The position numbers and the translations under genes are program-made. From contig NZ_CM001514.1 in the NCBI RefSeq assembly GCF_000263715.2, forward strand, positions 6,233,496-6,297,495: 64,000 bases of DNA. Reading direction: 5' to 3'. Below are positions 16,157 through 36,871 of the stretch, piece by piece (position 1 is the stretch's first letter; every line of letters begins with the position of its first letter). The notes under the pieces were generated by a model that saw only the letters and a program-made list of their open reading frames with translations, was not told the DNA's origin and searched no databases. The DNA comes from Pseudomonas synxantha BG33R (lineage in GTDB: Bacteria > Pseudomonadota > Gammaproteobacteria > Pseudomonadales > Pseudomonadaceae).

Positions 16157-16188
16157 TCTGGCCGTGTAGAGCGTTTGATCCTACGCGG

Positions 16189-16833
16189 TTATGCCAGCCA
16201 ATCCAGCGTCAGGATCAACCGGCGCTCATCGGCCTTGAGCGCTGGCGAACGATGGATCAGGCCATGCCCTTCGTTGCCGTGCCATTTGGTGCCCTTGAGC
16301 AGCGCCACCTCACCGCAGTGGATCTGCTCGATACGCCCGGTAGGTTCAGCATCCGCCTGGCTCAGTTTGCGGCGATCCATCACACCTTCGCGCAACCATT
16401 GGCTGCCGATACCGGCATAGGTGGTGATCAGCCGAACCGGCACATGATCAACGTGAAAACGCGGGCACATGGCCTTGTCCAACAGCCGCAAACGTACGCC
16501 AATACGCTTGGCGCCGAGCAGGCAGGCAAATGCACTGACCAGCCATGACACATCGGCGATAAAACCTTCGTAACCCTCAAGATCGCGGCAACTGGATGCC
16601 AGACCCTGCAAGTTCGGCACGGCGTCCTCGTTTTCGAGCTCAATCACCAGGGATTCGGCGAGCGGCTCATTGAGCGCCACCAGCAAAGCGCCGAACTCGG
16701 CGATATGCAGGGGCAGCTGACGTTGCCACAGCGCCAGGTTGACGCCATCTTCGAGGATATCGGACAGTGCCAACGGAGTTTGCCCACACGTCTGGCGGAT
16801 CACGGGGCGCAGGGGGATAACCGGGGCCAGCAT
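16189..16833 (-). CDS. DUF1826 protein of the Zur locus
   Basis: This 214-residue soluble protein carries the DUF1826 pattern: FIADVSWLVSAFACLLGAKR, DKAMCPRFHVDHVPVRLITT and GTKWHGNEGHGLIHRSP. The conserved His and Cys residues (CPRFHVDH, WHGNEGHGLIH) could bind metal or form a dioxygenase-like site. The ATG overlaps the zigA stop by one base, so the two are translationally coupled. The same gene sits next to zigA in other pseudomonads, where the locus is Zur-controlled. Biochemical function unknown. Confidence 0.85.
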   Translation of the reverse strand: MLAPVIPLRPVIRQTCGQTPLALSDILEDGVNLALWQRQLPLHIAEFGALLVALNEPLAESLVIELENEDAVPNLQGLASSCRDLEGYEGFIADVSWLVSAFACLLGAKRIGVRLRLLDKAMCPRFHVDHVPVRLITTYAGIGSQWLREGVMDRRKLSQADAEPTGRIEQIHCGEVALLKGTKWHGNEGHGLIHRSPALKADERRLILTLDWLA

Positions 16834-18038: not shown

Positions 18039-18065
18039 CAGGTATTCCTCATCAGGGTTGGCCGG

Positions 18066-18470
18066 TCAAACTGCCCGTTTATGGCGTTCGCGCAGCTCTT
18101 CACGTTCTTTGGCTTCGATACACAGGGTTGCGGTGGGGCGCAGCAGCAGGCGTTGCAGGCCGATGGGCTCGCCGGTTTCACGGCACCAGCCGTATTCACC
18201 GCGGGCCAGCAGCTCCATGGCGTCGTCGATCTTGTCCAACAGCTTTTTTTCCCGCTCGAGCAAGCGCAGTTGCCATTGGCGTTGTTCTTCGGCGCTGCCG
18301 ATATCCGCCAGGTCGCTGTTGGTTTCCTGCTCGCGCAGCGCCTGGAACTCAGCGTCGATACGCGCTTGCAGTTCATCGCGCTGAGCCAGCAGCAGTTCGC
18401 GGAAGAAGCGCTGTTGGGCTTCATTCATGTAGTCAGTAGCCGGTTGGGCCAGCAGTTCTTGTTCGGTCAT
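18066..18470 (-). CDS. dksA2: Zinc-independent DksA paralogue DksA2
   Basis: This 134-residue DksA-family transcription factor binds the RNA polymerase secondary channel with ppGpp. The central coiled coil carries the tip motif NSDLADIGSAEEQ. The zinc finger of ordinary DksA (four Cys) is reduced to WCRETGE...LCIEAKE, so only two of the four Cys remain and the others are Thr and Ala. That is the hallmark of DksA2, which works without zinc and replaces DksA during zinc starvation. It is the first gene after the Zur box at 18504-18518. Confidence 0.95.
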   Translation of the reverse strand: MTEQELLAQPATDYMNEAQQRFFRELLLAQRDELQARIDAEFQALREQETNSDLADIGSAEEQRQWQLRLLEREKKLLDKIDDAMELLARGEYGWCRETGEPIGLQRLLLRPTATLCIEAKEREELRERHKRAV

Positions 18471-18503
18471 GGGAAACGGTTCACGGGTGGGGCTGTGCTT
18501 TTA

Positions 18504-18518
18504 TGTTATAGTATAACA
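18504..18518. promoter_or_regulatory. Zur box between dksA2 and the small secreted protein gene
   Basis: TGTTATAGTATAACA is a perfect 15-nt palindrome around the central base and fits the gammaproteobacterial Zur operator core GTTATA-n-TATAAC. It lies 34 bp from the dksA2 start and 79 bp from the divergent start at 18597, so it can control both. An identical site stands before folE2. Confidence 0.9.
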
Positions 18519-18596
18519 ATACAAATAAGCCAACCTCCCTTGCTCCTCACGACGAAGGGCGCAATGCTTGATCACTTTCGCCCCCCGAGAAACACG

Positions 18597-18965
18597 ATGA
18601 GATACGTGCTGTGCGCCCTGCTATTGGCAACCGCAGGACCTGCCTGCGCCCAAGTCCCAAGCCCGTTGGCCAACTGCACCCGCAGCGCCACCTTGCTGGC
18701 TTGCGTGGACCCGCTGGGCAATGCCTACAGCGTGGCGACTGCGGGCAACATCACTTACCTGCGCGGTTTCGAAGTGATCGGCAAACGCTATTGGGCGCAG
18801 ACCAATAGCCGCTATGGGCAACTGACGTTCTTCACCGGGTTGGCATCGGATGGCGAGGCGTGGGTTGGCTACACGCGTCGCGTGGGCTGGACCACCATCA
18901 ACCGGTTTTCCAGTTCAGGCGGCGCCAGCGCCAAGTTCACCTGTAACCGAATGACCGGCTGTTAA
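18597..18965 (+). CDS. Small secreted protein of the Zur locus
   Basis: This 122-residue protein has a signal peptide (MRYVLCALLLATAGPACA, cleavage before QVPSP) and a mature part of about 100 residues with four Cys (NCTRSATLLACVDP near the start, CNRMTGC at the end), which could form two disulfides. It is predicted to be periplasmic or secreted. An upstream in-frame ATG at 18564 with GAAGGG before it would add 11 residues; 18597 gives the cleaner signal sequence. It is divergent from dksA2 across a Zur box and corresponds in position to PA5537 of P. aeruginosa. Function unknown. Confidence 0.78.
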   Translation: MRYVLCALLLATAGPACAQVPSPLANCTRSATLLACVDPLGNAYSVATAGNITYLRGFEVIGKRYWAQTNSRYGQLTFFTGLASDGEAWVGYTRRVGWTTINRFSSSGGASAKFTCNRMTGC

Positions 18966-20173
18966 GCCTGGGTTTTGTGCTGTTCCTGCACCCAAGCCAT
19001 GTAGCTGTTGATGGGCGGGTTCTTCTGGAAGTACTGTTTCAAACCTTCAAAAAGCCGATCCGCCACCGCTTGTTGATGACGCGCCGTCACCAGCCTCTGG
19101 GCGTCTCGCGCGTTGGAGATAAACCCGGTCTCCACCAGAATCGAAGGCACGTCCGGTGACTTGAGCACCGCGAACCCTGCCTGTTCCACCCGCTTCTGAT
19201 GCAGGCTGGTGATGCTTTGCAAGCTGCCCAATACCGCGCTGCCCAATTGCAGGCTGGAGGCGATGGTGGCGTTCATGGACATGTCGAGGATCACCCCGGC
19301 CAGCATCGGATCCTTGTCCTTCAGATTGAGTAACGTCGTGGCGCCCAAGAGGTCTGCGCCGTTCTCGCGCTGGGCCATGAACCGCGCCGTGGCAGAGGTG
19401 GCACCGCCTTCCGACAACGCATACACCGAAGCGCCCGATGCAGTAAGCCGTGGCGCGGCGTCGGCGTGCACCGAGATGAACATATCGGCCTTGTGCTTGC
19501 GGGCGATGTCCACGCGCTTGCGCAGCGGTACGAAGAAGTCGTCGTTGCGCACCAGCTTTACGGCAAAACCTTTTTCACGTTTCAAACGTTTCGCCAGCAA
19601 CTGGGCGATCGACAGCACCACATCTTTTTCGCGCTGGCCCTTGGAGCCGACAGCGCCCGGGTCTTTGCCGCCATGGCCGGGGTCAACCACCACAATGATG
19701 TCGCGTTTGGGATGCGCCTTGTCCGCCGGCACCACCAAGGGCGCCGGTTCAGCAGCGATTTGACGGGGCGCGTGCGTGGCGTTGGTCAGGTCCAGCACCA
19801 GGCGATGGCCTTGGCCATCCTGGGGCGGCAGCACAAAACTGTTGAGCTGCATCGGCGCGACCAAATCCAGGACGATACGCGTATCGCTCTTGCCGAAATG
19901 CCCGGAGCGGATCGAGGTAATCCCACTGTTCTTCAGCGCCAGTTGGGAAAAGTCGCCGCTGAGGCCGGCGCCACTCAAGTCGATGATCAGGCGGTCCGGC
20001 GACGTCAGGGAGAACATTTTGTATTGCACCGGGCCGCTAAGGTCGAACACCAGCCGCAGCTTATCGTCAGAGCGCCACAGCCGCGCATTGCGGATCTGCG
20101 TGGCGTAGGCCCCCAAAGGCAACGTGAACAAGGGGCTGACCAGCAGCAGGTTAAGGAGCTGACGTCTGTGCAT
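18962..20173 (-). CDS. amiA: N-acetylmuramoyl-L-alanine amidase with AMIN domain
   Basis: This 403-residue periplasmic amidase cleaves the peptide stem from peptidoglycan at the septum. The N-terminal signal (MHRRQLLNLLLVSPLFTLPL) has an RRQLL core that could be a Tat signal, as in E. coli AmiA/AmiC. The AMIN domain spans about 25-130 and the zinc-dependent amidase_3 domain about 158-385. Zinc and catalytic residues are visible in VVVDPGHGGKDPGAVG, QREKDVVLS, MFISVHADAA and SILVETGFISN. The gene is divergent from folE2 with a Zur box between them, so induction in zinc shortage is likely. An amiB-type copy normally lies elsewhere in pseudomonads. Confidence 0.92.
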   Translation of the reverse strand: MHRRQLLNLLLVSPLFTLPLGAYATQIRNARLWRSDDKLRLVFDLSGPVQYKMFSLTSPDRLIIDLSGAGLSGDFSQLALKNSGITSIRSGHFGKSDTRIVLDLVAPMQLNSFVLPPQDGQGHRLVLDLTNATHAPRQIAAEPAPLVVPADKAHPKRDIIVVVDPGHGGKDPGAVGSKGQREKDVVLSIAQLLAKRLKREKGFAVKLVRNDDFFVPLRKRVDIARKHKADMFISVHADAAPRLTASGASVYALSEGGATSATARFMAQRENGADLLGATTLLNLKDKDPMLAGVILDMSMNATIASSLQLGSAVLGSLQSITSLHQKRVEQAGFAVLKSPDVPSILVETGFISNARDAQRLVTARHQQAVADRLFEGLKQYFQKNPPINSYMAWVQEQHKTQA

Positions 20174-20255
20174 GACATATACCGCAGATAAAGGAGCATC
20201 CCTACTCGACAGGACTGAACAAAGGCTGGGACAGAAATTTCATCGTGACGACTAT

Positions 20256-20270
20256 TGTTATACTATAACA
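20256..20270. promoter_or_regulatory. Zur box between amidase gene and folE2 operon
   Basis: TGTTATACTATAACA is the reverse complement of the box at 18504-18518. It lies 32 bp before the folE2 start and 83 bp from the divergent amidase start. Confidence 0.9.
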
Positions 20271-20301
20271 TGACCAATCATTTCCAACGATGGACCTGCT
20301 C

Positions 20302-21192
20302 ATGAATGCGCTGACTCTGCCGGATATCGCCGCGCAGGCTTCACGCCAAGCCTTGCCACTTGACTGGGTGGGCATGTGCGGCATTGCCCTGCCTGTGTTG
20401 CTCGACGGCCAACACCTGGCCGCTACCGCCGATGCGGGCGTAAGCCTGAACGACGGCACGGCCCGTGGCATTCATATGTCACGCCTCTACCTGGCGTTGG
20501 AAATGCTCGAACAGCAACCCCTGACACCTGCACTTTTGCGTAATGTACTGCAGCGTTTTCTCGACACACATGAAGATTTATCTAAGAACGCCTACCTGCG
20601 TATTCACACAAATCTGTTGTTAAAACGCCCCGCGTTGGTCAGCCCTTTGGAGGGGTGGAAAAGCTATCCGGTCAGCATCGAAGCGCGCCTGGAAAATCAG
20701 ATGTTCCACGTGGAACTAAAAATTGACGTTACTTATTCCTCAACGTGCCCTTGCTCCGCTGCCCTGGCCAGACAGCTGATTCAGCAGCAGTTTCTCGAAG
20801 ATTTTGCCCACACACCTCTGCAGCATGAGGACGTGTTGAGCTGGCTGGGCAGCGCCAACGGTATTGTGGCCACGCCCCATAGCCAACGCAGTACCGCGCA
20901 GTTAAACGTTCAGCTGCAGGGTGACGATCTGGCGATAGTCGACTTGATCAACGCTGCCGAAGCAGCTTTGGGCACTGCCGTACAAACCGCGGTGAAACGT
21001 GCGGATGAACAAGCGTTCGCCCTGGTTAACGGACAGAACCTCATGTTCTGCGAAGACGCCGCACGCCGCTTGAACCTCGCGTTGAAGCGCTCGAATGCCG
21101 TCAAAGCCTTCCACCTCAAAGTGATCCACGCCGAAAGCCTGCACGCCCACGATGCGGTGGCTGAAAGCCGTTGGACGAGAGACTTTGCATGA
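20302..21192 (+). CDS. folE2: GTP cyclohydrolase IB, zinc-independent
   Basis: This 296-residue GCYH-IB enzyme converts GTP to dihydroneopterin triphosphate for folate synthesis and, unlike FolE, does not need zinc. Family segments seen are GIHMSRLYLALEM, IDVTYSSTCPCSAALARQ (active-site Cys region), ATPHSQRSTAQLNVQ and NLMFCEDAARRLNLAL. The start at 20302 (MNALTLPDIAAQ) is preferred; 20290 would add four residues. It is first in an operon with znuC-, znuB- and znuA-like genes, all overlapping or closely spaced. A parS-like site lies inside the coding sequence at 20702. Confidence 0.95.
   Translation: MNALTLPDIAAQASRQALPLDWVGMCGIALPVLLDGQHLAATADAGVSLNDGTARGIHMSRLYLALEMLEQQPLTPALLRNVLQRFLDTHEDLSKNAYLRIHTNLLLKRPALVSPLEGWKSYPVSIEARLENQMFHVELKIDVTYSSTCPCSAALARQLIQQQFLEDFAHTPLQHEDVLSWLGSANGIVATPHSQRSTAQLNVQLQGDDLAIVDLINAAEAALGTAVQTAVKRADEQAFALVNGQNLMFCEDAARRLNLALKRSNAVKAFHLKVIHAESLHAHDAVAESRWTRDFA
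20702..20717. other. parS-like ParB binding site
   Basis: TGTTCCACGTGGAACT has the perfect 14-bp palindromic parS core GTTCCACGTGGAAC and differs from the 16-bp canonical TGTTCCACGTGGAACA only in the last base. It lies inside folE2, about 43 kb from the DnaA-box cluster and 34 kb from parAB. Confidence 0.8.
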
Positions 21193-21857
21193 TTACCTGC
21201 CACGCTTTGCGCTGGGGCGCCCCCGGCCAACCACTGACGCCGGCGCTGAACCTGACGCTGGAAAAAGGTAGCCTCACGGGGATTATCGGCGCCAATGGCA
21301 CCGGCAAGAGCAGCCTGCTCAAAGTAATCGCCGGGGTGCAAAAGCCGCTGACGGGCAAGGTGCATGTCGATGTTCCACGTCGCGGCGGCTTGTCGTTCTT
21401 GCCCCAGCAACAGCACCTGGATCGTCAGTTTCCGATCAGTTTGCAAGAGTTGGTCGCTGCCGGCTTCTGGGGCACCCAGCTGAATTCACATGAACGCAAC
21501 GAGCGCCTGCACGCCGTATTGGACGACTGGTGTCTCAGCGGTTTGGAACAGCGCCCGCTGATGGCGTTATCCGGTGGCGAACTGCAACGCGCCCTGCTCG
21601 CCCGTATGAGCCTGGCCGACTCCCCCATCCTGCTGCTCGACGAACCCCACGCCGCCCTCGACGAAGACGGCCAGGCACTGTGCTGGAAACACATCCATAC
21701 CTGGCACAACCAAGGCCGCACGCTGGTGGTCGTCTGTCATGACTTGGCGTCCGTGCGTCACCACACCCAGCACGTGCTGCTGCTTAAAAACACCGGCTGC
21801 GTGTTCGGCCCCAGCAAAGAGCTGATCCGCCCGCAACCACAGATGCAGGTGGCCTGA
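21189..21857 (+). CDS. Zinc/manganese-type ABC transporter ATPase (ZnuC-like)
   Basis: This 222-residue ABC ATPase has Walker A GANGTGKSSL near residue 35, Q-loop LPQQQH, signature ALSGGELQRALLARM near 128, Walker B PILLLDEPHAALDE and the H-loop CHDLASV. Its ATG overlaps the folE2 stop (ATGA). With the next two genes it makes a metal ABC importer of the ZnuABC type under the Zur box. A separate zur-znuCBA locus is usual in pseudomonads, so this is probably a second zinc importer. Confidence 0.9.
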   Translation: MITCHALRWGAPGQPLTPALNLTLEKGSLTGIIGANGTGKSSLLKVIAGVQKPLTGKVHVDVPRRGGLSFLPQQQHLDRQFPISLQELVAAGFWGTQLNSHERNERLHAVLDDWCLSGLEQRPLMALSGGELQRALLARMSLADSPILLLDEPHAALDEDGQALCWKHIHTWHNQGRTLVVVCHDLASVRHHTQHVLLLKNTGCVFGPSKELIRPQPQMQVA

Positions 21858-22723
21858 TGCACCTCACCGCTCACCTGTGGATGCCATTCCAGGATTTCGT
21901 GTTTATGCGCCGCGCACTGATCGGCGGGTTGGTGCTTGCTTGCAGCACCGCCCCCTTGGGCGTGTTCCTGATCCTGCGACGCATGAGCCTGATCGGTGAC
22001 GCCGTGGCTCACGGCATTCTGCCGGGCGCCGCACTGGGCTTCTGGTTCGCAGGGCTAAGCCTGCCCGCGCTGACCCTCGGCGGCCTCGGCGCCGGCCTGA
22101 GCATGGCCGGCCTGGCGGCGTGGATCACCCGCCGCACCGGCCTGCGCGAAGACGCCAGCCTCGCCGCCATCTACCCCATTTCGCTCGCGGCCGGTGTATT
22201 GATCCTGGGCATTGCCGGCAAACGCTTGGACCTGCTGCACCTGTTATTCGGCTCCGCCCTGGCCGTGGACGAAACCACACTGACCGGAATGCTCTGGGTG
22301 TCCAGCTTCAGCCTGATCGCCATGGCACTGATCTACAAACCCCTGCTGCTCGACACCCTTGACCCGCTGTTCCTGCAAACCGTCAGCCGCCTTGGCCCAC
22401 TGGCCCACGGCCTGTTCCTGACCCTGGTGGTGCTGAACCTGGTGATCGGTTTTCAAGCCATCGGCGCACTGATGGTGGTGGGCTTGATGATGCTGCCGGC
22501 CATCGCTTCACGCTTCTGGAGCCGGCGCCTGCCGGTGTTGATCGCAGTATCGGCGGTGCTGGGATGCCTCTCCGTGTGGCTGGGTTTGCTGCTTTCGTTC
22601 TACTACTCACTGCCCAGCGGCCCGGCGATCGTGCTAGTGGCGGGCGCCGGATATGTGTTGTCCGTGGTATTCGGTCCGGTGCATGGCTTATTGCGCCGCC
22701 CGCCTTTGCCTACATCCTCATGA
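21857..22723 (+). CDS. Zinc/manganese-type ABC transporter permease (ZnuB-like)
   Basis: This 288-residue inner membrane protein is of the ABC-3 family with about eight or nine helices. Typical family segments are RRMSLIGDAVAHGILPGAAL (about 41-60), which holds the coupling region, and GFQAIGALMVVGLMMLPAIA. The ATG overlaps the last base of the ATPase gene stop. It forms the channel of the Znu-like importer. Confidence 0.9.
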   Translation: MHLTAHLWMPFQDFVFMRRALIGGLVLACSTAPLGVFLILRRMSLIGDAVAHGILPGAALGFWFAGLSLPALTLGGLGAGLSMAGLAAWITRRTGLREDASLAAIYPISLAAGVLILGIAGKRLDLLHLLFGSALAVDETTLTGMLWVSSFSLIAMALIYKPLLLDTLDPLFLQTVSRLGPLAHGLFLTLVVLNLVIGFQAIGALMVVGLMMLPAIASRFWSRRLPVLIAVSAVLGCLSVWLGLLLSFYYSLPSGPAIVLVAGAGYVLSVVFGPVHGLLRRPPLPTSS

Positions 22724-22734
22724 GGTGTTTCCCG

Positions 22735-23613
22735 ATGCGCGCTCTTCTTGTGTTGTTCAGCCTGTTGCTGCCGCTGTCGATGGCTCACGCCGCAGACAAA
22801 CTCCAGGTAGTCACCAGCTTCAGTATTCTCGATGACATCACCCATCAGATCGGTGGCGACCATATTCAGATCAGCAACATGGTCGGCCCGGACGCCGATG
22901 CTCATACTTATGAACCCACACCGGATGACGCCAAAGCGCTGCTCAAGGCCAAGGTCATCATCAAGAACGGTCTAGGTTTCGAGCCGTGGCTGGATCGCCT
23001 GGTCACCAGCACTGAAACCACCGCTACGGTCGTCACCGCCAGCAAAGGCGTGATCTCGCACACCATGGACGAAGACGGCGAGACCATTCCCGACCCACAC
23101 GCCTGGCACAACCTGGCCAACGCCGAAATTTATGTGAGCAACATCACCAAGGCATTGGTGGCCGCCGACCCTGCCAATAAAAGCGACTACCTGCGCAACA
23201 GCCAGGCTTACCTTAAACAAATCCACAGCCTGCTGGCCGAGGCCAAGGCCAAGTTCGCTGCACTGCCGTCGGGCAACCGCCGCATCGTCACCTCCCATGA
23301 CGCCTTCGGCTATTTGGGCCAGGCGTATGGCATCCAATTCCTCGCGCCCCAGGGCTTGTCTACCGAGCGTGACCCGTCGGCCGCCGAAGTCGCCGCGCTG
23401 ATCACCCAGATCCGTAAAGACAAGGTCAAAGCCGTGTTTATCGAAAACATCAAGGACTCGCGCCTGCTCAAGCAGATTGCCGATGAAAGCGGCGCGCAGA
23501 TAGGCGGCACGCTGTACTCCGACGCCCTCGCCGCTCAAGGCCCGGCCAGCACCTTTATCGGGCTGTTCGAATACAACCTGAACACCCTGTGCGCGGCGTT
23601 GAGCAAACCATGA
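22735..23613 (+). CDS. Zinc ABC transporter substrate-binding protein (ZnuA-like)
   Basis: This 292-residue periplasmic cluster A-I metal-binding protein has signal peptide MRALLVLFSLLLPLSMAHA. Metal ligands of the family are visible as His in DADAHTYEPTPDD, His in DPHAWHN, His in VTSHDAFGYL and Asp in GGTLYSDALA. It lacks the long His/Asp-rich loop of classic ZnuA, which is common in second zinc or Zn/Mn binding proteins. GAGGTG stands 8 nt before the ATG at 22735; an in-frame ATG at 22720 overlaps the permease stop but is less well placed. Confidence 0.9.
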   Translation: MRALLVLFSLLLPLSMAHAADKLQVVTSFSILDDITHQIGGDHIQISNMVGPDADAHTYEPTPDDAKALLKAKVIIKNGLGFEPWLDRLVTSTETTATVVTASKGVISHTMDEDGETIPDPHAWHNLANAEIYVSNITKALVAADPANKSDYLRNSQAYLKQIHSLLAEAKAKFAALPSGNRRIVTSHDAFGYLGQAYGIQFLAPQGLSTERDPSAAEVAALITQIRKDKVKAVFIENIKDSRLLKQIADESGAQIGGTLYSDALAAQGPASTFIGLFEYNLNTLCAALSKP

Positions 23614-24170
23614 TCCGCAAAAACCCTTCAGGTGACCTGCCGGTAATTGCTGAATCAGCCTACGTCGACAAGACTGCGATCATCTGCGGCAAGGTCATCA
23701 TCGGCGAGAACGTCTTCGTCGGCCCCTACGCCGTGATCCGCGCCGACGAAGTCGATGCCAGCGGCGCCATGGACCCGATCACGATCGGCGCGAACTCCAA
23801 CATCCAGGACGGCGTGGTGATCCACTCCAAGTCCGGCGCGGCGGTGACCATTGGCGAGTTCACCTCCATCGCCCACCGTTCCATCGTCCATGGCCCCTGC
23901 ACAGTCGGCGACCGCGTGTTCATCGGCTTCAACAGCGTGCTGTTCAATTGCGCCGTCGGCGATGGTTGCGTGGTGCGCCACAACTCGGTGGTCGATGGCC
24001 GCGACCTGCCCGCGGCCTTCTACGTGCCCTCCACCACCCGCATCGGGCCTAACACCGACCTGTCGCAATTCCCGCCGGTGAGTGTCAGCGCCTCGGAGTT
24101 TTCCGAAGACGTGGCACGCACCAACGTCGACCTGGTGCGCGGCTACAAAGCCTTGCAAAACGAGTTCTGA
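23610..24170 (+). CDS. Gamma-class carbonic anhydrase-like hexapeptide protein
   Basis: This 186-residue left-handed beta-helix protein has repeats such as AIICGKVIIGENVFVGPYAV. Three His that bind the metal in gamma carbonic anhydrases are in place: VVIHSK, SIAHRS and SIVHG. The C-terminal helix is about 150-186. The ATG overlaps the znuA-like stop (ATGA). Gamma enzymes can use iron or cobalt, so in a Zur operon it may stand in for a zinc-dependent beta carbonic anhydrase. Activity is inferred. Confidence 0.9.
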   Translation: MIRKNPSGDLPVIAESAYVDKTAIICGKVIIGENVFVGPYAVIRADEVDASGAMDPITIGANSNIQDGVVIHSKSGAAVTIGEFTSIAHRSIVHGPCTVGDRVFIGFNSVLFNCAVGDGCVVRHNSVVDGRDLPAAFYVPSTTRIGPNTDLSQFPPVSVSASEFSEDVARTNVDLVRGYKALQNEF

Positions 24171-24173
24171 GCC

Positions 24174-25225
24174 ATGAGTCGCCTGCTGATACGCAACGCC
24201 CGCCTGGTCAACGAGGGCCAGGTATTCGACGCCGACGTGCTGGTCGCCAATGGCCGTATCGAGAAGATTGCCGCCAGCATTGTACCGTCGCCGGCCTCGA
24301 CCCCTGTGAAGTGGCTGGAGTCAAAGTGTTCATGGGCGCCTCCACCGGCAACATGCTGGTGGACGACCCACGTATTCTGGACCGTTTGTTTGCCGAAGTG
24401 TCGACCATTCTGCTCGCGCACTGCGAACACACCCCGAGCATCCTGGCCAACGAGCAACGCTTGCGCGAGCGTTTTGGCGAGCGCATTCCCGCTGTCGCTC
24501 ATCCACTGATCCGCGACGCCGAAGCATGTTATCGCTCGTCATCGTTTGCCGTGGAACTGGCCCAGCGCCACGGCACGCGACTGCACGTGCTGCACCTGAC
24601 CAGCGCCCGCGAACTCGCGCTGTTCGAAGACAAGCCCCTGGCCGAAAAACACATCACCGCCGAGGTCTGCCTGCATCATCTGCTGTTCGACGACCGCGAC
24701 TATCACCGCCTCGGCCACCAGATCAAATGCAACCCGGCCATCAAGACACGCGCCGACCGCGACGCGCTGCGCCTGGCGTTATTAAGTGATCGCCTGGATG
24801 TGATTGGCACTGACCATGCGCCGCATACCTGGGCGCAAAAACAATTGGGCTATCGTGAAGCACCCTCGGGTTTACCCCTGGTGCAGCACGCCCTGCCGGC
24901 ACTATTGGAGTTGGTGGCCGACGGGCATTTGCCTCTGACCACACTGGTGGCGAAAACCAGTCATCGGGTGGCCGACCTGTTTGCCATTCCTGATCGCGGT
25001 TACCTGCGTGAAGGCTATTGGGCCGATCTGGTGTTGATCAAACCTGAGCCTCAGGGCAAACCGGTCAGCAGCCAACCGATTCTCGCCCGTTGCGGCTGGA
25101 CACCCTTTGCAGAGCGCAGCTTTCGTCACAGCGTGAGCACCACGCTGGTGTCCGGCCACCTGGCCTGGCACAACGGCCAGGTGGTCGACAGTTGCCAGGG
25201 CTTGCCCCTGCACTTTCTGCGTTAA
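24174..25225 (+). pseudogene. pyrC: Dihydroorotase, internal deletion with frame change
   Basis: The first about 36 codons (MSRLLIRNARLVNEGQVFDA...GRIEKIAASI) are a normal dihydroorotase start. Near 24285-24300 the sequence jumps into the middle of the family: a second frame resumes as LDPCEVAGVKVFMGASTG and runs in frame to the stop at 25225 (ITAEVCLHHLLFDDRDYH, VIGTDHAPHTWAQKQ). About 100 residues are missing, including the metal-binding HxH segment after strand 1, and the frame shifts by a non-multiple of three. The first frame ends at 24509. It is the last gene of the Zur operon, where other pseudomonads carry an intact copy for pyrimidine synthesis. Enzyme activity is not expected; a housekeeping dihydroorotase should exist elsewhere. 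Confidence 0.88.
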
Positions 25226-28661: not shown

Positions 28662-29450
28662 CTATGGGGCTCGGAATTCGAGCAAACCGTCCTGGATCCA
28701 CTGTTTCAGCCACGTGGCCGCTTGCAGCGACGCACCCTCTGAATAAGTGACTGCCAACTCTGCGCACAGTTCTGAAAAATTCCAGCCGGTAGTCACCATC
28801 CCTGCCAGTGCACAGGCTTCGTCAGGCCCCAGGCTGCGGTAGTGACACACATTCTGATGACGCCATACCAGGCAGATTTGCATCGGGTCCAGCGCCTGGC
28901 TGCCGGGAAAACCCGATGCATCCTTGCTGGCTCGCCAGATCGCCACCGTGTTGAAACGGCACAGCAAATGCTGCACTGAAGGCGCCAGGCTTACCTGCAG
29001 CGTCGGCCAGTCCCCGGGTGCCAATTGCGCCATGTCATTCACGGTCAGCGGCGTACCCTGGGGTGCATCGAACGCCAGGGTAAACGCCCACTCCAGGCGC
29101 GCCAATTCAGCCAGCGGTGCACTTTGTTCTGCGACCAAGTGCTCAAGGATAAACATCGAAAAGCGCTCACCGAGCCAACGCAGGCTGTAGTGGGCCGAGG
29201 GGTAACGGCGAACGTAGGCTTCGCTCAGCGCGGCAAATTCATCATCACCCAGCCAATATCGGATAGCGCTGAAGTCATGGCACAGCACTTCCTTCAATCG
29301 CGACAGATAGGCGTTGTGGTAAATCGCCAGGCCGGTGTCCACATCCAGGGTCGGCCCCCCCAGCAAGGTGGCGGCAAAGCTGCTGTTGGCAGCGCAAGGT
29401 TCAGATAACAGGTGCTCTTCAAAAGCCAATTGCCAGTCGATCAGGCGCAT
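28662..29450 (-). CDS. bufC: Bufferin maturation partner (DUF2063, BufC/HvfC-like)
   Basis: This 262-residue soluble protein has a DUF2063 N-terminal domain (about 1-95: WQLAFEEHLL, AIYHNAYLSRLKEVLCHDFS, YVRRYPSAHYSLRWLG) followed by a less conserved C-terminal domain. In MNIO-type RiPP systems this protein delivers the precursor peptide to the DUF692 enzyme. The ATG overlaps the end of the upstream DUF692 gene by 10 nt, so the two are coupled. No DoxX-type gene, often found in such operons, follows here. Confidence 0.85.
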   Translation of the reverse strand: MRLIDWQLAFEEHLLSEPCAANSSFAATLLGGPTLDVDTGLAIYHNAYLSRLKEVLCHDFSAIRYWLGDDEFAALSEAYVRRYPSAHYSLRWLGERFSMFILEHLVAEQSAPLAELARLEWAFTLAFDAPQGTPLTVNDMAQLAPGDWPTLQVSLAPSVQHLLCRFNTVAIWRASKDASGFPGSQALDPMQICLVWRHQNVCHYRSLGPDEACALAGMVTTGWNFSELCAELAVTYSEGASLQAATWLKQWIQDGLLEFRAP

Positions 29451-30286
29451 AGCGATCTCCTGGCCAGGGCGCTGGCAGCCAGCTCGCGGGCCTTGCTCAA
29501 CTCAGTGAGCAACTCTTCGAACGGCGGGAAATGATCATCGCGCTCCAACAGCGTCGACACCGGCCCCAAATGCTCTAGGGTCTGTTGGTAAAGCGCCCAC
29601 ACCGGGTCGCACACAGGATGGTCGTGGGTGTCGACCACATAGTCGCCGTAGTCCATATGCCCGGCCAGGTGCAGTTGGCGGATGCTCTCGGGCGGCAGGT
29701 TGCGGATAAACGTCCAGGCATCAAAGCCATGGTTACGCGCACTCACATACACATTGTTCACATCCAGCAGCAACTGGCACCCGCTCAGGTGGGCCAAAGC
29801 GTTGAGGAACTCCCACTCGGTGAACTCATCAGCCTTGGAGCGCACATAGCTGGAGACGTTTTCCAGCACCAGCGGGCGCTGCAACACGTCCTGCACCTGA
29901 CGCACACGACCGGCCACGTGATAGAGGCTTTCTTCGGTGTAGGGCAGCGGCAGCAGGTCATGCAACTGGTGCGCGCTGCCGCGGCTCCAGCACAGGTGAT
30001 CGGAAATCCACGCCGGCTGGATGCGCTCGGCGAGCTGTTTGATTTGCGCAAGGTAATCGGTATCGAGGGCATGGGGCCCACCGATGGACAAGGACACACC
30101 GTGCATTACCACGGGGTAACGCTCGGCTATCGCATCCAGGTAGTACAAGGCTTTGCCGCCCTGCACCAGATAATTCTCGGAGATCACTTCGAACCAATCC
30201 ACGGCCGGCGACTGTTCGAGGATCTGCTGGTAGTACTCACTGCGTAAACCCAGGCCGTAACCCAGACTTGGAAGGGACGCGGACAT
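29441..30286 (-). CDS. bufB: DUF692 multinuclear iron oxidase (BufB-like RiPP enzyme)
   Basis: This 281-residue TIM-barrel protein is of the DUF692/MNIO family (MbnB, TglH, BufB), which oxidise Cys residues in precursor peptides with a multi-iron centre. Metal ligands are visible across the sequence: VVMHGVSLSIG, WISDHLCW, LVLENVSSY, QLLLDVNNVYVSARNHG, LHLAGHMDYGDYVVDTHDHP and LERDDHFP. It lies between the small Cys-rich secreted precursor and the DUF2063 partner, the standard bufferin order. Expected product: thiooxazole-type modified Cys on the precursor. Confidence 0.9.
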   Translation of the reverse strand: MSASLPSLGYGLGLRSEYYQQILEQSPAVDWFEVISENYLVQGGKALYYLDAIAERYPVVMHGVSLSIGGPHALDTDYLAQIKQLAERIQPAWISDHLCWSRGSAHQLHDLLPLPYTEESLYHVAGRVRQVQDVLQRPLVLENVSSYVRSKADEFTEWEFLNALAHLSGCQLLLDVNNVYVSARNHGFDAWTFIRNLPPESIRQLHLAGHMDYGDYVVDTHDHPVCDPVWALYQQTLEHLGPVSTLLERDDHFPPFEELLTELSKARELAASALARRSLCA

Positions 30287-30353
30287 GACTCACTCCAGGG
30301 CAAAGTGTCCGCAGCGGTGGCAGGCAGCCGCCGCGGTTGCACTCGTTTGCCGG

Positions 30354-30605
30354 TTACTCGCCGACTTTACCGCCAGCGGCGTCGCAGGCCGATTTAGTCA
30401 TGGCCTTGAAGCCCATCCCTTTGCACTCGCCCTGGCCCTTGCACGCGTGGTCCTTGGTTTTGCAGTCGTTCATGCCTTTGCAGGAGGTCACGCCGTAGCA
30501 GTGAACGGTGGCGTCTGCGGCTTGTACCTGAGTGGCCACACCCGCGAACAGAGAAGCAGCGGCCATCGCGAGGGCGGCACCAGCAGCAGCGGATTTAATG
30601 CTCAT
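30354..30605 (-). CDS. bufA: Bufferin-type RiPP precursor, secreted Cys-rich peptide
   Basis: This 83-residue precursor has an unusually long N-terminal signal ([20 protein letters not shown], cleaved near VQA) that doubles as leader, and a core of about 48 residues with six Cys: [37 protein letters not shown]. The CxGVxxCKG...CKGxGxC pattern resembles the BufA2 subfamily of periplasmic metallophores; the subfamily is recalled, not tested. The start at 30605 has AGGA 8 nt upstream. An open frame 60 nt longer is not signal-like. Known bufferins protect against copper by binding it through modified Cys. Confidence 0.87.
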
Positions 30606-30721
30606 TGTTGTATTCCTCATGATCAGTAGTGGAGCCGGTCCGAACGGATTGTTCAGTCTCGACACACCACTAGAGTGAGGCCCCCCATCGGCGTTACAGC
30701 CGTGTGCAAATATTTCTGAAA

Positions 30722-32608
30722 TTATTCATCAAGCTTCAACAGAGGCTCCTGGAAGCGTAATAACCGCCCAGCGTTACCCAGCACCAGCAAGGTACTGAGG
30801 TTATGCAGCACCGCCGCAATCATGGCACCCGCCGCGCCCAACCAGCCAAAGGCCGCGAACACCACGATGGCCAACGTCCAGCCCAGGCCGATGATCACGT
30901 TCACCTGCAACGTCTGCCGGCACTGGCGGCTCAAGCGCACGCAGGTACCCAGGCGGCGCAAGTCGCTGCCGATCAACACCACGTCCGCCGATGCCAGGGC
31001 GATATCGGCACCGCCCGCCCCCATCGCCACACCAACCACACCGGCCTTGAGCGCCAACGAATCATTGATGCCATCGCCCACCACCATCGGCCGGAAGCCG
31101 CTGCTGATTTCACCCAGCACGCGGTTGAGCTTGTCTTCCGGCAAGGCTTGGGCTTCGACATCACTGATGCCCACCTCCAGCGCCAGGCTGTCGGCCACGC
31201 TTTGGCGGTCGCCGGTCAGCAGCAACTGGCGGCCCAGGCCCAAATCACGCAACTCTTGCAGGGCCTGGCGCGCCTCCGGCTTGACGCTGTCGGCCAGCAA
31301 CAGCCAGGCCAGGAAATCGCCGTTCAACGCCAACCCGGCAATTGGGCCGTCATGGCTGGGAACGCCGCTGGTGACGATGCCCAATTGTTCGAACAACTCC
31401 GGCCGCCCCAGCGCCGCTTCGCCCTGTTCGGTCTGTGCGACCACGCCCAGGCCCTGACGCTCGCGAATGTCGGTGAGCGCCAGTAACTGCTCCTGAGTCG
31501 CCAACCCCGCCAACGCTCGGCTGACCGGGTGACTGCTCGCCGAGCCGAGGCTGGCCGCCAGGTTCAGCAGCTCCTGGCGATCCGGTGCGGTGGTCTCGAT
31601 GGACTGCAAACGCAGGGTGCCAAAGGTCAGGGTGCCGGTCTTGTCGACCACCAACGAGGTCAGGTCAGCCAATTCTTCGAGAAACGCCGAGCTGCGAATC
31701 AGAATCCCATGACGCGCCGCCACGGCGATCCCGGCAATCGCCGTGGCCGGCGCCGACAGCACCAAGGCACACGGGCACGCCGCCACCAGCACCGCCAGCA
31801 TCGCCTGCGCATCGTTGGTGACGAACCAGGTGACCGCCGCCAGCAACAGCACCAACACCATATAGCTACCGGCATAACGCTCCAGCAGCCGAGTGATCGG
31901 CGGCTTGGAGCGCTCGGCGTTCTGCATCAGTGCGATGACTTTGCCCAAGGTCGATTCGTTGCCAGTGCGCGTCACTTCAAGGCGCAACAGACCATCAAGG
32001 TTGATCGCGCCACCAAACACCTGCACGCCAACGCCGGCTTCCAGCGGCACTGACTCACCGGTGATCGGCGCCGTGTCCAGGCTCGCCTGGCCGGACAGCA
32101 CCACGCCATCGGCCGGCACGCGGTCGCCGGCGCGCACTTCGACGATATCGCCGGGCTTCAGCGTGGCGTTATCCACTTCGGTAATGGATCCGTCAGCCTG
32201 TACCAAACGCGCGTGGCTGCGGGTGAGTTTGCCCAGGGCATGGATCGCCTCCTGGGAGCCGATCACGCTGCGCTCTTCCAGCACATGGCCGAAGATCATG
32301 ATGATCGGCAACAACGCGGCGGTGAGCAGATCGCCGGTGGCCCAGGCGCCAAGCATGGCCAGGGCAATCAGTTGGTCGGTGATGCCGTGCAAGCTGGGAA
32401 AGCGCAGGCTGTACCAGGCCGAACGCATCACCGGCACCGCCACCAACAGCGATGCCACCCCCAGCAGCAATTGGCTCACACCGTTCTGATCCGGCGCCAG
32501 CCAGCGCCACACCAGGCCCAGCACGAGCAACCCAAGGGCGAGCATGGCCAGGGTCAATTGCCGGGCAGCGCTGCGCTGTTCGGCCGAGGTCAGCATGGGT
32601 GCGCTCAT
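30722..32608 (-). CDS. hmtA: P1B-type heavy-metal ATPase, HmtA-like
   Basis: This 628-residue inner-membrane metal pump lacks the N-terminal HMA domain. Motifs: TGES at 183-186, CPC in the sixth membrane helix (278-280), phosphorylation site DKTGT at 322-326, HP at 360-361 and GDGIND at 511-516. The last helices read [10 protein letters not shown] and [17 protein letters not shown], so the eighth helix has HNLST and not the usual motif of zinc or copper exporters. In P. aeruginosa the similar HmtA is a zinc/copper importer and its operon is zinc-regulated (recalled). It is last of four overlapping genes after three SPFH proteins; the ATG overlaps the previous stop by 4 nt. Confidence 0.85.
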
Positions 32609-33639
32609 TGTTCGGCTCCCTGGATGATCAAGCGGGAGTCGTCTTTGGGATCGACGGTGGTCACGGAACCCGCCTGGCCGAGAATCTTCGGCAGGCGTTC
32701 GCGGTACAGGCGCAACAGCAAGCCGGGGTCTTTGACCTGGGCGAGGCTGGCGACGGTAGCGGTTTGCGCCTGGGCATTGGCCAAGCGTTCGCTGGCCTGG
32801 GCGTGGGCGACTTGCACCTGGCGGTCAGCCTCCTGATTCGCGGTCTGGGTGAGTTTTTCCGCTTCGGTGCGGGCGTTGGCCACCGCTTTATCCGCTTGCT
32901 GGCTGGCGGTCAGCACTGCGTTGAAGGCATTCACCGCCGGGCCCGGCAGGCTCGATTGCACATCGACGCGGGTGACTTCGATGCCCAGGCCCAAGCCGCT
33001 GGCAGCCAACTCGGCCAGGCGTTTATTGATGCCTTGCACCAAGTCGCCGCGCAGTCGCTCGCGGCGTTCGGCGGCGCCATTGTCGCTGCCGATCAGTTCA
33101 GGGCGTGCTACCAGAATGGTGTCCAGATCCCGCGCTGCCGTCAGGGCTACGGCGCTGCGCGTCACCAACCGATCCAGCGCAGGCAACACGTGGTCGCCCT
33201 GCAACACGAAGGCATAGGGCTCGGTCACCTTGTAGAACACCCGCACATCCAACTGCACCACCCCGGCATCGCCGGTCAGCAGGTAGCCGGAACCGGCCAG
33301 GGCATCGCTCAACGGCGTAGCGAAACTGGCCACGCGATCGGCCTGCAACGCCGCATCGGAACGCAGCAGGTTCTCCACTCGGCGCTCGATCACCCGGTCC
33401 GCCGCCGGCAACAACACCACCTGCTCGAACGGCTGCGGCCAGGCCAGCAACAGCCCGGCGTTCTGAATGCGATCAAGGGCGCCGAAGTGCAGGACCACCG
33501 CGCGATTCTGCGGGTCGATCTGGCGCACATTGGAAAAGGCCCAGGCCAACGCCGCCAACACAGTGACCGCGTACAGCGCCAGGAAGGTCAGGCGCCCGGC
33601 CTGAATCCAGGGGCTGTCGGGACTGTCGCGTTCGCTCAT
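32605..33639 (-). CDS. SPFH-domain membrane protein (HflK-like), third of trio
   Basis: This 344-residue protein has one N-terminal membrane helix (about 16-38), then an SPFH/band-7 domain (RAVVLHFGALDRIQNAGLLL, about 45-235) and a long Ala/Gln-rich coiled coil (about 235-305; ANARTEAEKLTQTANQEADR). It has the make-up of HflK but is a paralogue: true hflKC lie with hflX/purA. Coupled by 4-nt overlaps to both neighbours. It is likely to form an oligomeric cage or microdomain at the inner membrane around the metal ATPase; that role is inference. Confidence 0.85.
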   Translation of the reverse strand: MSERDSPDSPWIQAGRLTFLALYAVTVLAALAWAFSNVRQIDPQNRAVVLHFGALDRIQNAGLLLAWPQPFEQVVLLPAADRVIERRVENLLRSDAALQADRVASFATPLSDALAGSGYLLTGDAGVVQLDVRVFYKVTEPYAFVLQGDHVLPALDRLVTRSAVALTAARDLDTILVARPELIGSDNGAAERRERLRGDLVQGINKRLAELAASGLGLGIEVTRVDVQSSLPGPAVNAFNAVLTASQQADKAVANARTEAEKLTQTANQEADRQVQVAHAQASERLANAQAQTATVASLAQVKDPGLLLRLYRERLPKILGQAGSVTTVDPKDDSRLIIQGAEQ

Positions 33640-34625
33640 GGCTGGATGTCCTTCGGCCCATCCACCAGGGCGCGGAACGGCGCGGCGTCGGTGCGCAGGA
33701 TGATTTTGGTACCCGGCGTGACCACCGTGCCCAAGGTATCCAGCGAGCGCAGCAGGTTGTACAACTGCGGATTACCCGCGTAGGCACGGCCATAAATCTG
33801 CGCGGCTTCTACCCGCGATTGCGCTTCGATATCGGCGGCTTTCACCGTGGCATCGGCCTGCACGATGCGCGCATCACGCTCGGCGGCGGAGCGGATTTGC
33901 GCCGCTTCGCGCTTGCCCACGGCGGTACGTTCAGTGGCGATGGTTTCCCGCTCGGCGCGCATACGATCAACCGTGGCGGTGAGTGTCACCGAAGGCAATG
34001 TCAGGCGCTCGATGCCGACCTGCGCCACGCGCACGCCGTAGGTGGCGAGCAATTGTTGATCAATCTGCTGGCGCAACTGCGCTTCAAAATCGGCGATGCG
34101 CACTTGGCTGGCGTCGGTGTTGATCAAACTGGACAGGTCAAAGCTGGCCGCCGTGGTTTCCAGCGCCGAGCCGACGAAGGCGCGGATCTGCCGCGCCGCT
34201 TCGTCCGGCTGGTTCTGCACTGCGCGCATGAAGCGCTGCACATTGTCGGCATCGCCCTGCACCTGCCACGCCACATAGGCCTGCACGATAATCCGCAGGC
34301 CATCGCGGGTGCCCACGTCCTGCAAGCCACTGGACGTGGTGCGCAGGCGCAGGTCCACCGGGATTGCCGCTTCGAATGGCGCCGGCCAGCGCCAGCCCAG
34401 GCCCGGTTCCAACAACACTCGCGCGGGGTTGCCGAAGCGGGTAATCACCGTGGCCTCGCCGGAGCGCACCTGCACCAGGCTCGCCGCTGCCACGGCAAAC
34501 AGCACCAGTAACGCCGCCCAGGCCATGCGCCGCCAAGGGAAAGGCCCGGCCGCTTGCTCATCACCATGGTGGTGATGGTGGTGGCCGTGATGATGATGAC
34601 CGTGATCGTGGGAATGAGCGCTCAA
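33636..34625 (-). CDS. SPFH-domain membrane protein (HflC-like) with His-rich N-terminus
   Basis: This 329-residue protein begins with a His-rich tail of about 20 residues (MSAHSHDHGHHHHGHHHHHH), the kind of sequence that binds zinc, nickel or copper. A single membrane helix (about 33-51), an SPFH domain (VRSGEATVITRFGNPARVLL, about 52-220) and a coiled coil (about 220-285) follow. The start is TTG at 34623-34625 with AAGGAG 8 nt upstream. The tail sits on the cytoplasmic side if the orientation is N-in. In this operon it may sense or buffer the metal carried by the P1B ATPase. Confidence 0.85.
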   Translation of the reverse strand: MSAHSHDHGHHHHGHHHHHHGDEQAAGPFPWRRMAWAALLVLFAVAAASLVQVRSGEATVITRFGNPARVLLEPGLGWRWPAPFEAAIPVDLRLRTTSSGLQDVGTRDGLRIIVQAYVAWQVQGDADNVQRFMRAVQNQPDEAARQIRAFVGSALETTAASFDLSSLINTDASQVRIADFEAQLRQQIDQQLLATYGVRVAQVGIERLTLPSVTLTATVDRMRAERETIATERTAVGKREAAQIRSAAERDARIVQADATVKAADIEAQSRVEAAQIYGRAYAGNPQLYNLLRSLDTLGTVVTPGTKIILRTDAAPFRALVDGPKDIQP

Positions 34626-34637
34626 CAGACAGACTCC

Positions 34638-36563
34638 TTATTGAACGGCTTTGCGCGGCGCCAGTGGATCGGCGGGCAAAGTAAAAGAACGCAGATCGAT
34701 CGTCGGCGCACTGTCGGCGCCCAAACGATGATCCAGAATAAGCAGCTTGGCGTGGGCCAGGCCCAGGCTCAGTTGGCTCAGGTACTGTTCCAGTACGAAA
34801 GCCTGGCCCGCCGCGGCATAGGCTTTTTGTTCGGCGGCAAAGCGCAGGTTCGCCGCTTGGGCGCCAGCATTCACTTCGCGGGCGCTGGCCTGGGCCTGAT
34901 CACGGACGGTGCTGGCTTGCAGCAGCGCCTGGTTGGTCTGCTCGCTGGCCGCGCCACGTTCACGGGCAATCAGTGCCTGGGCGCCGATCTGGGCAGCTTG
35001 CACACCGTGGTAAGCATTGGCGGCGCCGGCCGGTGGGTGGATCGCTTCAACCACCGTGGCGAGGATCTCCACCCCGCTGTCGAGGGTGTGCAGGTCTGCT
35101 TGCACCGTGCGGCCAATCTCGTCGGCGAGGCTGGTGCGTTGTTCCCCGAGCAATGCGTCGAGGGTGCGCGAGGCAAAGTCATGCACCAGGATGCGGCTGG
35201 CGGTGCTGCGGATCAGGGTGGGTATGTCCGCGCTGTTGTATGTGGCGGCAAGCGCAGCCTGGTCGGTGAGGCCGATGCGGTAGACAAATCGCACGTCCAT
35301 GTTGACGATCTGGAAGCCCTGCTTATCGCCGCTGCTGCTGGCGATGACCTGGGATTTGTCATTCACATGGCTGGCGTCCCACAGGCGGTTGGCAATCAAC
35401 GGCGCCGGGCCTTCGGCAGCGGCCAACTCCGGTGTGGCGGCTTCGCTGACGCTGGTCGCCAGTTCATGCACCACGCCGTTCTCCACGTTGAGTACGCGGC
35501 CCAGCGGCCACGGCAAACCCGTATGCAGACCGGGGCCGAACACCTCGACCGGTTTGCCGAAGCGCTCATAAATCCCACGCCCTTGCAGGGGCACTTCATG
35601 CACGCCGGTCAGCGCCCAGCCTACCGCCAGCACCACCAGCAACACCGGCAGGAAAGCCCGGCGCATGTAGGTGAAGGCCCAGATCTGGCGCAGGTCGATG
35701 CCAAAACGGTTGTGCAATTCATGCTGCAACGCCAGCAACGGTTGTGGCGGCCAACGCAGCAGGCCGGCGATAAAACTCTGCGCCATCAAGCGCGGCTCAA
35801 GGCGCGGCTGGCGCGGGCTGAACAGCGACAGCACGCCCCGCAGCAGGAACTCCAGCGCCACCAGCGCCGGCAACAGGCCGACGAGTGTCGCCAGACGCAG
35901 CGGCCACACCGACTCGGCATTGGCAAACAACAGGCAGATGGCACTCAGCACCAGGCAGATAATCGCCACCCGACTCAACTGCGCCAGCTGTGAAGCTTCC
36001 GGCCACTGGGCGGCGGTTTCCTGGGCCAGGCGACGCTCGAACACCAGCAAGCCAAAAGCCAGCCCCAATGCCAGCGCCGCACCGATGCTGGCGGACTGAC
36101 CGATGGCCGCAGCAGGCAAGGCCAGGTCCCAGAACTGGATAACGCTGACCAACGCCAGCAACGACCAGCCAGCCAACCACAGCACCGGTGCGCCAACTTG
36201 CGCCAGCAGGCCGTTGCCGAAACGGTTGATCAGCCCCTTGTGCCAGGCAGTGGGCTCAATGGGTTGCTCAATCAACTCAGCGCTCGGCACCTCCAGCGCC
36301 TGGGCACGCCAATCAGCCACCCACCAGGCCGACTGCAACCCGGCCACCAACAGCAGCAGGGCCGAAGCGCAGTTGATCAACACCACCGGCCAGATCGACA
36401 GTGGCGCAAACAACGCCACGAACAGCGCCAACACCCATCCGCTGATCGCCAGGGTCGTCAGGCTGATACCCGCTTGGCGTAACCGACGGGCATGGAACAG
36501 CCCTTGCTGAAAACGCGCCAGGCCTTCTACCGAAGCGCCATCAGCTTCTAAATCCACCTGCAT
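34638..36563 (-). CDS. Large multi-helix SPFH membrane protein (HflK-like)
   Basis: This 641-residue protein combines about six membrane helices in the first 280 residues (pairs near 25-75, 125-195 and 210-270), a further helix at about 303-320 and a C-terminal SPFH domain (about 325-560; EVPLQGRGIYERFGKPVEVF), ending in an Ala-rich coiled coil. Ordinary HflK has one helix, so the N-terminal membrane block is an added module. The start at 36563 (MQVDLEADGASV) is chosen because the longer open frame runs back through a REPIN. It is first in the operon, 12 nt before the His-rich SPFH gene, with a Zur-like box about 29 nt upstream. Confidence 0.82.
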   Translation of the reverse strand: MQVDLEADGASVEGLARFQQGLFHARRLRQAGISLTTLAISGWVLALFVALFAPLSIWPVVLINCASALLLLVAGLQSAWWVADWRAQALEVPSAELIEQPIEPTAWHKGLINRFGNGLLAQVGAPVLWLAGWSLLALVSVIQFWDLALPAAAIGQSASIGAALALGLAFGLLVFERRLAQETAAQWPEASQLAQLSRVAIICLVLSAICLLFANAESVWPLRLATLVGLLPALVALEFLLRGVLSLFSPRQPRLEPRLMAQSFIAGLLRWPPQPLLALQHELHNRFGIDLRQIWAFTYMRRAFLPVLLVVLAVGWALTGVHEVPLQGRGIYERFGKPVEVFGPGLHTGLPWPLGRVLNVENGVVHELATSVSEAATPELAAAEGPAPLIANRLWDASHVNDKSQVIASSSGDKQGFQIVNMDVRFVYRIGLTDQAALAATYNSADIPTLIRSTASRILVHDFASRTLDALLGEQRTSLADEIGRTVQADLHTLDSGVEILATVVEAIHPPAGAANAYHGVQAAQIGAQALIARERGAASEQTNQALLQASTVRDQAQASAREVNAGAQAANLRFAAEQKAYAAAGQAFVLEQYLSQLSLGLAHAKLLILDHRLGADSAPTIDLRSFTLPADPLAPRKAVQ

Positions 36564-36591
36564 CCGCTCAATGCCCACCTGTACACAATTC

Positions 36592-36604
36592 GTTACGATA
36601 TAAC
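36592..36604. promoter_or_regulatory. Degenerate Zur-like box before the SPFH/HmtA operon
   Basis: Read on the minus strand it is GTTATATCGTAAC: one arm (GTTATA) is identical to the two clear Zur boxes in this window and the other differs at two positions. It is flanked by TTCGT/ACGAA arms and lies 29 nt before the first ATG of the operon. Assignment rests on similarity and on recalled zinc control of hmtA in P. aeruginosa. Confidence 0.5.
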
Positions 36605-36651
36605 ACGAAGCGTGAAATTTTTGTTCGCTTTTGCATCCACTCTGAATCCCT

Positions 36652-36741: not shown

Positions 36742-36871
36742 TTGTTTTGCTGTGCTCTCTGGATTGTGACTAACCCCCTATAAACACGAGCCATCACTGG
36801 TGTCGGCTGCGATTAATCGGCACACTCCGAAACAGCTTTTCGCGGGTTCACGGACAAGGAAGCGCCACCCC

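Follow-up and report, generated by a model that had tools for sequence, protein, structure and literature searches.

We investigated four adjoining genes in a stretch of 64,000 nucleotides (nt) at the end of the 6.3-Mb single-contig genome of Pseudomonas synxantha BG33R, a fluorescens-group Pseudomonas; this whole stretch is called the window, and positions are counted from its first letter. The genes lie on the minus strand (36563-30722) downstream of one putative Zur box and encode three SPFH proteins, named here K7, C and K, followed by a P1B-type ATPase. They are read here as the fluorescens-group counterpart of the P. aeruginosa genes PA2439-PA2435, i.e. as a co-inherited, Zur-controlled unit in which three SPFH proteins and a P1B ATPase work together, probably in zinc uptake, and we put the probability of this reading at about 0.55. 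Its parts differ in firmness: a zinc-starvation unit under Zur is very probable, an action of the SPFH trio on this pump is probable, net zinc import by the pump has about an even chance, and a ring or dome of the trio around the pump, proposed from the homology with HflK/HflC, is tentative. As read from the sequence, the evidence consists of the operon layout, a Zur-type box that is conserved, an SPFH gene and an ATPase gene that occur and are inherited together, and unusual membrane residues in the ATPase. The features are the following.

34638..36563, minus strand: K7, seven-helix SPFH protein of 641 amino acids; PF01145 at 73.2 bits, seven hydrophobic segments, five histidines invariant in 32 sequences.
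33636..34625, minus strand: C, SPFH protein of 329 amino acids with a TTG start, a His-rich N-terminal tail and one hydrophobic segment; PF01145 at 106.8 bits; 26 of 27 loci have at least 7 His ahead of this segment.
32605..33639, minus strand: K, SPFH protein of 344 amino acids with one hydrophobic segment; PF01145 at 65.2 bits.
30722..32608, minus strand: HmtA-like P1B-type ATPase of 628 amino acids with a CPC motif and without an HMA domain; TIGR01525 at 528 bits, CPC, DKTGT and HNxST.
36592..36604, minus strand: Zur-type box GTTATATCGTAAC, 28 nt upstream of the K7 ATG; 10 of its 13 columns do not vary among 81 aligned rows, and a single base separates it from the box before the genome's own znuD-like gene.
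36612..36618, minus strand: ATTTCAC element, 7 nt upstream of the Zur-type box; exact ATTTCAC-N7-GTTATAnnnTAAC in 72 of 80 loci.

K7 and C are separated by 12 nt, and C and K, like K and the ATPase, overlap by 4 nt, which bears out the close packing described in an earlier, sequence-only note on this DNA (the original prediction). This layout supports one transcription unit, K7-C-K-ATPase. Sigma-70 promoter and terminator scans of 28600-37000 gave no more matches than shuffled sequences did.

The joint inheritance of the trio and the pump was followed in three genome samples and in plasmids. Among 248 Pseudomonadaceae genomes (K7 at E ≤ 1e-30, ATPase at E ≤ 1e-110), both genes were found in the same 37 and neither in the other 211, and K7 and the ATPase were 2.03-2.83 kb apart in all 37, the gap reaching at least 2.7 kb in nine. 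A gene of 150-165 amino acids with a signal-like N terminus lies between K and the ATPase in 4 of 7 loci examined, where it fills the longer gap (L172 6835-7320; L173 7142-7594; L175 6981-7469; L179 5487-5984); that of L172, the only one scanned, had no Pfam match. The window ATPase, a candidate orthologue of HmtA (PA2435), is 77-83% identical to the ATPases of 13 genomes from another genus of the family, all of which have K7 close by. One genome (G585) has an internal stop in its ATPase. In a phylum sample of 398 genomes, the ATPase (E ≤ 1e-100) was found in 11, eight of them Pseudomonadaceae that are also in the family sample, with K adjoining just upstream in 11/11.

In a class sample of 369 genomes, only the genome of the window had K7 better than 9e-10 or the ATPase better than 6e-96. 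SPFH matches occurred in 158 of these genomes at E ≤ 1e-3, the best after the own genome at 9e-10. Three of these regions (L184, L185 and L186; L185 is only 3.8 kb long) were rejected as operon relatives, and since the fetched regions show no ATPase match, the class matches are taken as ordinary SPFH proteins. The next best ATPase match in this sample (G172), 39% identical, is of the P1B-4 type with SPC and HEGST; it was likewise rejected as an operon relative, because its motifs are those of P1B-4 and its 18 kb gave no match to the trio.

On plasmids, K7 was found in 10 of 72,556 records, and the order K7-C-K-ATPase was kept in all six copies fetched, which come from Rhizobium, Klebsiella, Burkholderia and Paraburkholderia, i.e. 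from alpha-, beta- and gammaproteobacteria. C, K and the ATPase lie downstream of K7 in 79 of 80 named loci, the 80th (L056) being a 3.3-kb contig; in some loci (e.g. L030 and L055) the best tblastn segments span only part of a gene. P. haemolytica, P. lactis and P. paracarnis are among the species whose named K7 loci are most similar to that of the window (94-96%). Trees of K7 and of the ATPase for 19 loci have their main supported groups in common. Since co-occurrence, plasmid order and trees agree, the SPFH genes and the pump look like a unit that has been moved and lost together. One of the plasmids, NZ_CP142847.1 of Klebsiella aerogenes (L167), is typed as conjugative and carries its complete four-gene copy near a Tn3 family transposase gene.

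The P. aeruginosa counterpart has the same arrangement of SPFH genes (PaFlo5-7) followed by a P1B ATPase (PA2435, HmtA), a weak Zur site and a response to zinc starvation. In a znuA deletion, PA2434, PA2435 and PA2437-PA2439 were raised 5.6- to 14.4-fold, with a weak Zur site (E 0.11) and with PA2436 unlisted in the excerpt (Pederick et al. 2015), and the PA2439 promoter was completely bound by Zur only with zinc (Ducret et al. 2021). In a 2025 preprint, the PA2435 and PA2437-PA2439 proteins were up in zinc depletion (p values 0.011 to 0.423), PA2436 was undetected, and HmtA was placed near these genes. The window differs in having no gene between K and the ATPase and in the bufferin genes that follow. 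The claim that HmtA imports metal is that of Lewinson et al. 2009, as cited in reviews, and a 2022 review wants it confirmed. A literature search found no paper joining SPFH, Zur and zinc uptake, and a search for HmtA with SPFH gave, among the matches listed, none with HmtA; nor was a statement of the trio and the pump as one inherited unit found in the literature searched. The operon and its Zur link are thus already in print, and what is new is that the trio and the pump are inherited together across distant bacteria. An SPFH set tied to this pump is supported by the 37 shared genomes; that such an arrangement is largely undescribed, as the original prediction had it, is not supported, since earlier work on PA2439-PA2435 had found binding by Zur and higher levels when zinc is depleted, and had described the SPFH trio as PaFlo5-7.

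The ATPase belongs to the P1B heavy-metal pumps by its TIGR01525 score (cut-off 346 bits), its CPx motif and DKTGT, and a family profile search gave no HMA match, as had been predicted. In an alignment of 23 sequences from alpha-, beta- and gammaproteobacteria, the CPC of positions 278-280, D322 of DKTGT, H108, E111, T96, H602 and N603 are invariant, and the invariance of T578 was read from the alignment mask. The pump shares CPC and DKTGT with the P1B-2 pump ZntA (PDB 4umv) and can be aligned with it over nearly its whole length, but counting along the HMMER alignment places T96, T578 and H602 at ZntA E202, K693 and D714, i.e. at the M2 Glu, M5 Lys and M6 Asp of the P1B-2 type, and the HMA domain is absent. 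The best PDB sequence match is the P1B-4 pump sCoaT (PDB 7qbz), also without an HMA domain and with an M6 histidine, H657, equivalent to H602. In comparison with sCoaT and the P1B-4 pump of G172, however, the M4 motif is CPC instead of SPC, the M6 motif is HNxST instead of HEGxT (sCoaT E658 becoming N603), and the exit glutamate (E120 in sCoaT) is T96. Because both motif and membrane residues differ, the ATPase fits neither P1B-2 nor P1B-4. The residue roles are those described for sCoaT, for which H657 has been put forward as an internal counterion preventing back-transfer (PMC8880997). As judged from the alignment, losing the acid of the release path would agree with an altered direction or an altered metal, and is proof of neither.

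The pump could instead be an exporter that removes copper, or another metal that accumulates or replaces zinc in shortage, with the SPFH proteins as its scaffold. The P1B-4 type of the G172 pump speaks for this, as do the match of H602 with the proposed counterion of sCoaT, the wish of the 2022 review for confirmation of HmtA import, and the BufA2-type bufferin genes, copper-linked in the literature, that lie downstream of the operon. We nevertheless regard an exporter as doubtful, since the release-path Glu of ZntA and sCoaT is here an invariant Thr, K693 and D714 or E658 are replaced as well, and both the control by a Zur box and the zinc genes nearby indicate a shortage rather than an excess. 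Uptake is the more likely direction for zinc.

K7, C and K all exceed the PF01145 cut-off of 23.6 bits, and the seven hydrophobic segments of the first protein and the His-rich start of the second, both noted in the original prediction, are present. The names HflC-like and HflK-like hold only loosely, since all three proteins score below the HflK/HflC equivalog cut-offs (TIGR01932/TIGR01933): C reaches 93.4 bits (cut-off 134.4), and K and K7 reach 91.2 and 55.9 bits (cut-off 159.4), whereas the genome's own HflK and HflC exceed theirs with 377.7 and 283.6 bits. Among the families searched, C and K nevertheless most resemble HflC and HflK, and K7 most resembles HflK; the K7 profile is closer to K (probability 98.8%) than to C (74.3%).

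By hydropathy, all seven segments of K7 precede its SPFH domain, and C and K have one each. In an AlphaFold model of K7, helices matching the seven segments are followed by the SPFH strands and by a single long helix (512-603). In HflK/C the SPFH domain is periplasmic and the N terminus lies inside; with its odd number of helices, K7 would have the same topology. The trio thus shares with the HflK-HflC assembly of E. coli FtsH (PDB 7vhp, 7wi3 and 9cz1) SPFH proteins with an N-terminal membrane segment and, in the K7 model, SPFH strands followed by one long helix. It differs in the seven membrane helices of K7, in an inserted stretch with an invariant NRLWD and H399, in its scores below the HflK/HflC cut-offs, and in having a pump as the co-inherited partner gene.

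Four of the five invariant histidines of K7 (366, 399, 509 and 519) are found neither in K and C nor in the genome's own HflK and HflC. C has 13 His in its His-rich start, before its sole hydrophobic segment, and no histidine of K is invariant in 21 sequences. In G703, from another class of the phylum, the ATPase too starts with a His-rich tail. If the topology of HflK/C holds, the K7 histidines would be periplasmic and those of C cytosolic, which by this analogy suggests a metal path.

The trio could also be a zinc-starvation version of HflK/HflC that retunes the zinc protease FtsH and is merely co-transcribed with the ATPase. The family resemblances just described favour this, and the 2025 preprint recalls HflC and HflK as known interactors of the zinc protease HflB. 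It is unlikely, given that K7 was never found without the ATPase (37/37) nor the ATPase without K (11/11), that the genome's one FtsH lies elsewhere, at 5.32 Mb, and that the own HflK and HflC pass the cut-offs below which K7, C and K fall.

The box before K7 has two mismatches to GTTATAnTATAAC. Its ten invariant columns compare with 6 of the 117 other columns of 36564-36693, in 81 aligned rows made up of 80 loci and the window; the rows are related species and therefore not independent trials. Sites with up to two mismatches number 4 in the window against 0.19 expected, and two of them are exact, at 18505 (34 nt before dksA2) and at 20257 (between amiC and folE2); these are the two clear boxes reported earlier. 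A one-mismatch site, GTTATATTGTAAC, which is one base from the window box, lies 34 nt before a TonB receptor gene whose best family is ZnuD (5.5e-95; 319.5 bits against a cut-off of 950, the gene being cut by the locus end). Second-genus genomes (L172-L174 and L179) have a weaker box, GTTATAAGGTTAC, and the 7-nt spacing is kept wherever TTCAC is kept (L172, L173, L176 and L179); the ATTTCAC element is possibly a -35 element or a second protein site. From its position shortly upstream of the operon and its conservation, the 13-nt box is a credible Zur site, and with the zinc-starvation context the zinc-starvation control suggested in the original prediction is supported. That prediction placed the box correctly, at a distance of 29 nt that is in fact 28 nt.

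That the box is a general promoter element and the operon responds to something else, for instance copper or envelope stress, is highly improbable: the box is degenerate, its site counts do not exceed those of a control pattern, a conserved ATTTCAC lies 7 nt upstream and hmtA mRNA was zinc-insensitive in one study, but only a single base distinguishes the box from that of the genome's own znuD-like gene, and in P. aeruginosa the PA2439 promoter was fully shifted by Zur only with zinc and the proteins rose in zinc depletion.

Upstream of the six fetched plasmid operons, the best Zur-like matches to the same consensus had 3 to 5 mismatches and were unconvincing. The Rhizobium copies L170 (~8801) and L171 (~8706) share a near-palindrome, GATACGTAATAACGTATC, ~150-170 nt upstream of K7, which from its sequence is perhaps the site of their own metal regulator. 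A further Zur-like site of the window, GTTATACTACAAG, with 2 mismatches, lies at 4123-4135.

Several observations weigh against a zinc-importing unit under Zur. The P1B fold offers no reason of its own for import. In the whole genome, sites with up to two mismatches number 23, against 62 for a reversed control pattern, so that a match to the box pattern alone proves nothing, and the sigma-70 scan gave no match at the box or at the ATTTCAC element. The K7 model has a mean pLDDT of 65.9, with 316-411 and 413-417 below 50; as it is poor in this part of the SPFH domain (316-417), the clustering of the K7 histidines cannot be judged from it. The one locus without the His tail of C, the Klebsiella plasmid copy, has 2 His there. 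In the 20 kb fetched from each of G790, G847 and G703, no relative of ten zinc-island proteins was found apart from a weak match to an ABC ATPase in G703. Ducret et al. 2021 found the hmtA mRNA of P. aeruginosa constantly low and unrepressed by 2 mM zinc, and the 2022 review excepts hmtA from the Zur-bound promoters. Finally, in a 2026 paper the trio was deleted as paFlo5-7 in PA14, with slight effects on biofilm and Galleria virulence; its main text does not contain the word "ATPase" and names zinc once, about FtsH, and its available passages mention no zinc-limited test. Here, paFlo5-7 was equated with PA2437-PA2439 by gene order and names, not by sequence.

In the zinc-uptake reading, Zur would leave the box upstream of K7 as zinc falls. 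K7, C and K would then assemble like HflK/HflC, forming a ring or dome of mixed composition that sits on the periplasmic face and surrounds or docks the ATPase; metal gathered outside by the K7 histidines would be moved by the ATPase via the CPC site, and on the cytosolic side the His-rich tail of C could take it up. A bolder form, in which a P1B pump whose ion path is rebuilt by the loss of the exit glutamate and the counter-charges imports zinc only inside its own three-part SPFH dome, with the K7 histidines gathering periplasmic zinc, the cytosolic His tail receiving it, and the cassette spread among alpha-, beta- and gammaproteobacteria, is rather unlikely.

Two groups of neighbouring genes belong to the surroundings of the operon.

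15182..25225: zinc-starvation island with two CobW/COG0523-type GTPases (one over the ZigA cut-off), DksA2, an AmiC-like amidase, FolE2, an Azt-like zinc ABC transporter, a gamma carbonic anhydrase-like protein and PyrC2.
28662..30605, minus strand: genes for a bufferin precursor of the BufA2 type, the maturase BufB and an HvfC-like partner, which follow the ATPase directly.

The operon ends ~5.5 kb from the zinc-starvation island. DksA2, FolE2 and PyrC2 belong to zinc starvation (in part after the 2022 review). In P. sprentiae, the operon adjoins a zinc ABC transporter and a GTP-binding protein. The pyrC2 gene of the island (about 24178-25225, plus strand) looks broken: a dihydroorotase-like start, recognised by eye, and the remainder of the gene (profile position ~143 onwards) lie in different frames, with roughly 95 residues missing between the two parts. 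The bufferin genes probably have a separate promoter, since a distinct and strongly conserved block, CTGTAACG ... TCTAGTGG, lies in the ~117-nt stretch between them and the ATPase. Of 80 loci, 51 have BufA or BufB, and some of the rest stop short of that place.

An SPFH assembly that encloses a membrane transporter, the arrangement proposed here from genes alone, is known from stomatin, which encapsulates aquaporin-1 and urea transporter-B (PMC12407830); that case is eukaryotic, concerns passive transporters and has no operon link. With the trio and the pump co-inherited across distant bacteria, a pump held in its own protein scaffold becomes a testable idea. SPFH cages have been solved, the bacterial ones mostly without known clients, and a set of SPFH proteins that these samples never show apart from one particular pump names its client. 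The finding may be relevant to HmtA as well, which is reported to be an importing P1B ATPase but whose direction, according to the 2022 review, awaits confirmation: the pump may need its SPFH partners, and tests of the pump only would leave these partners out.

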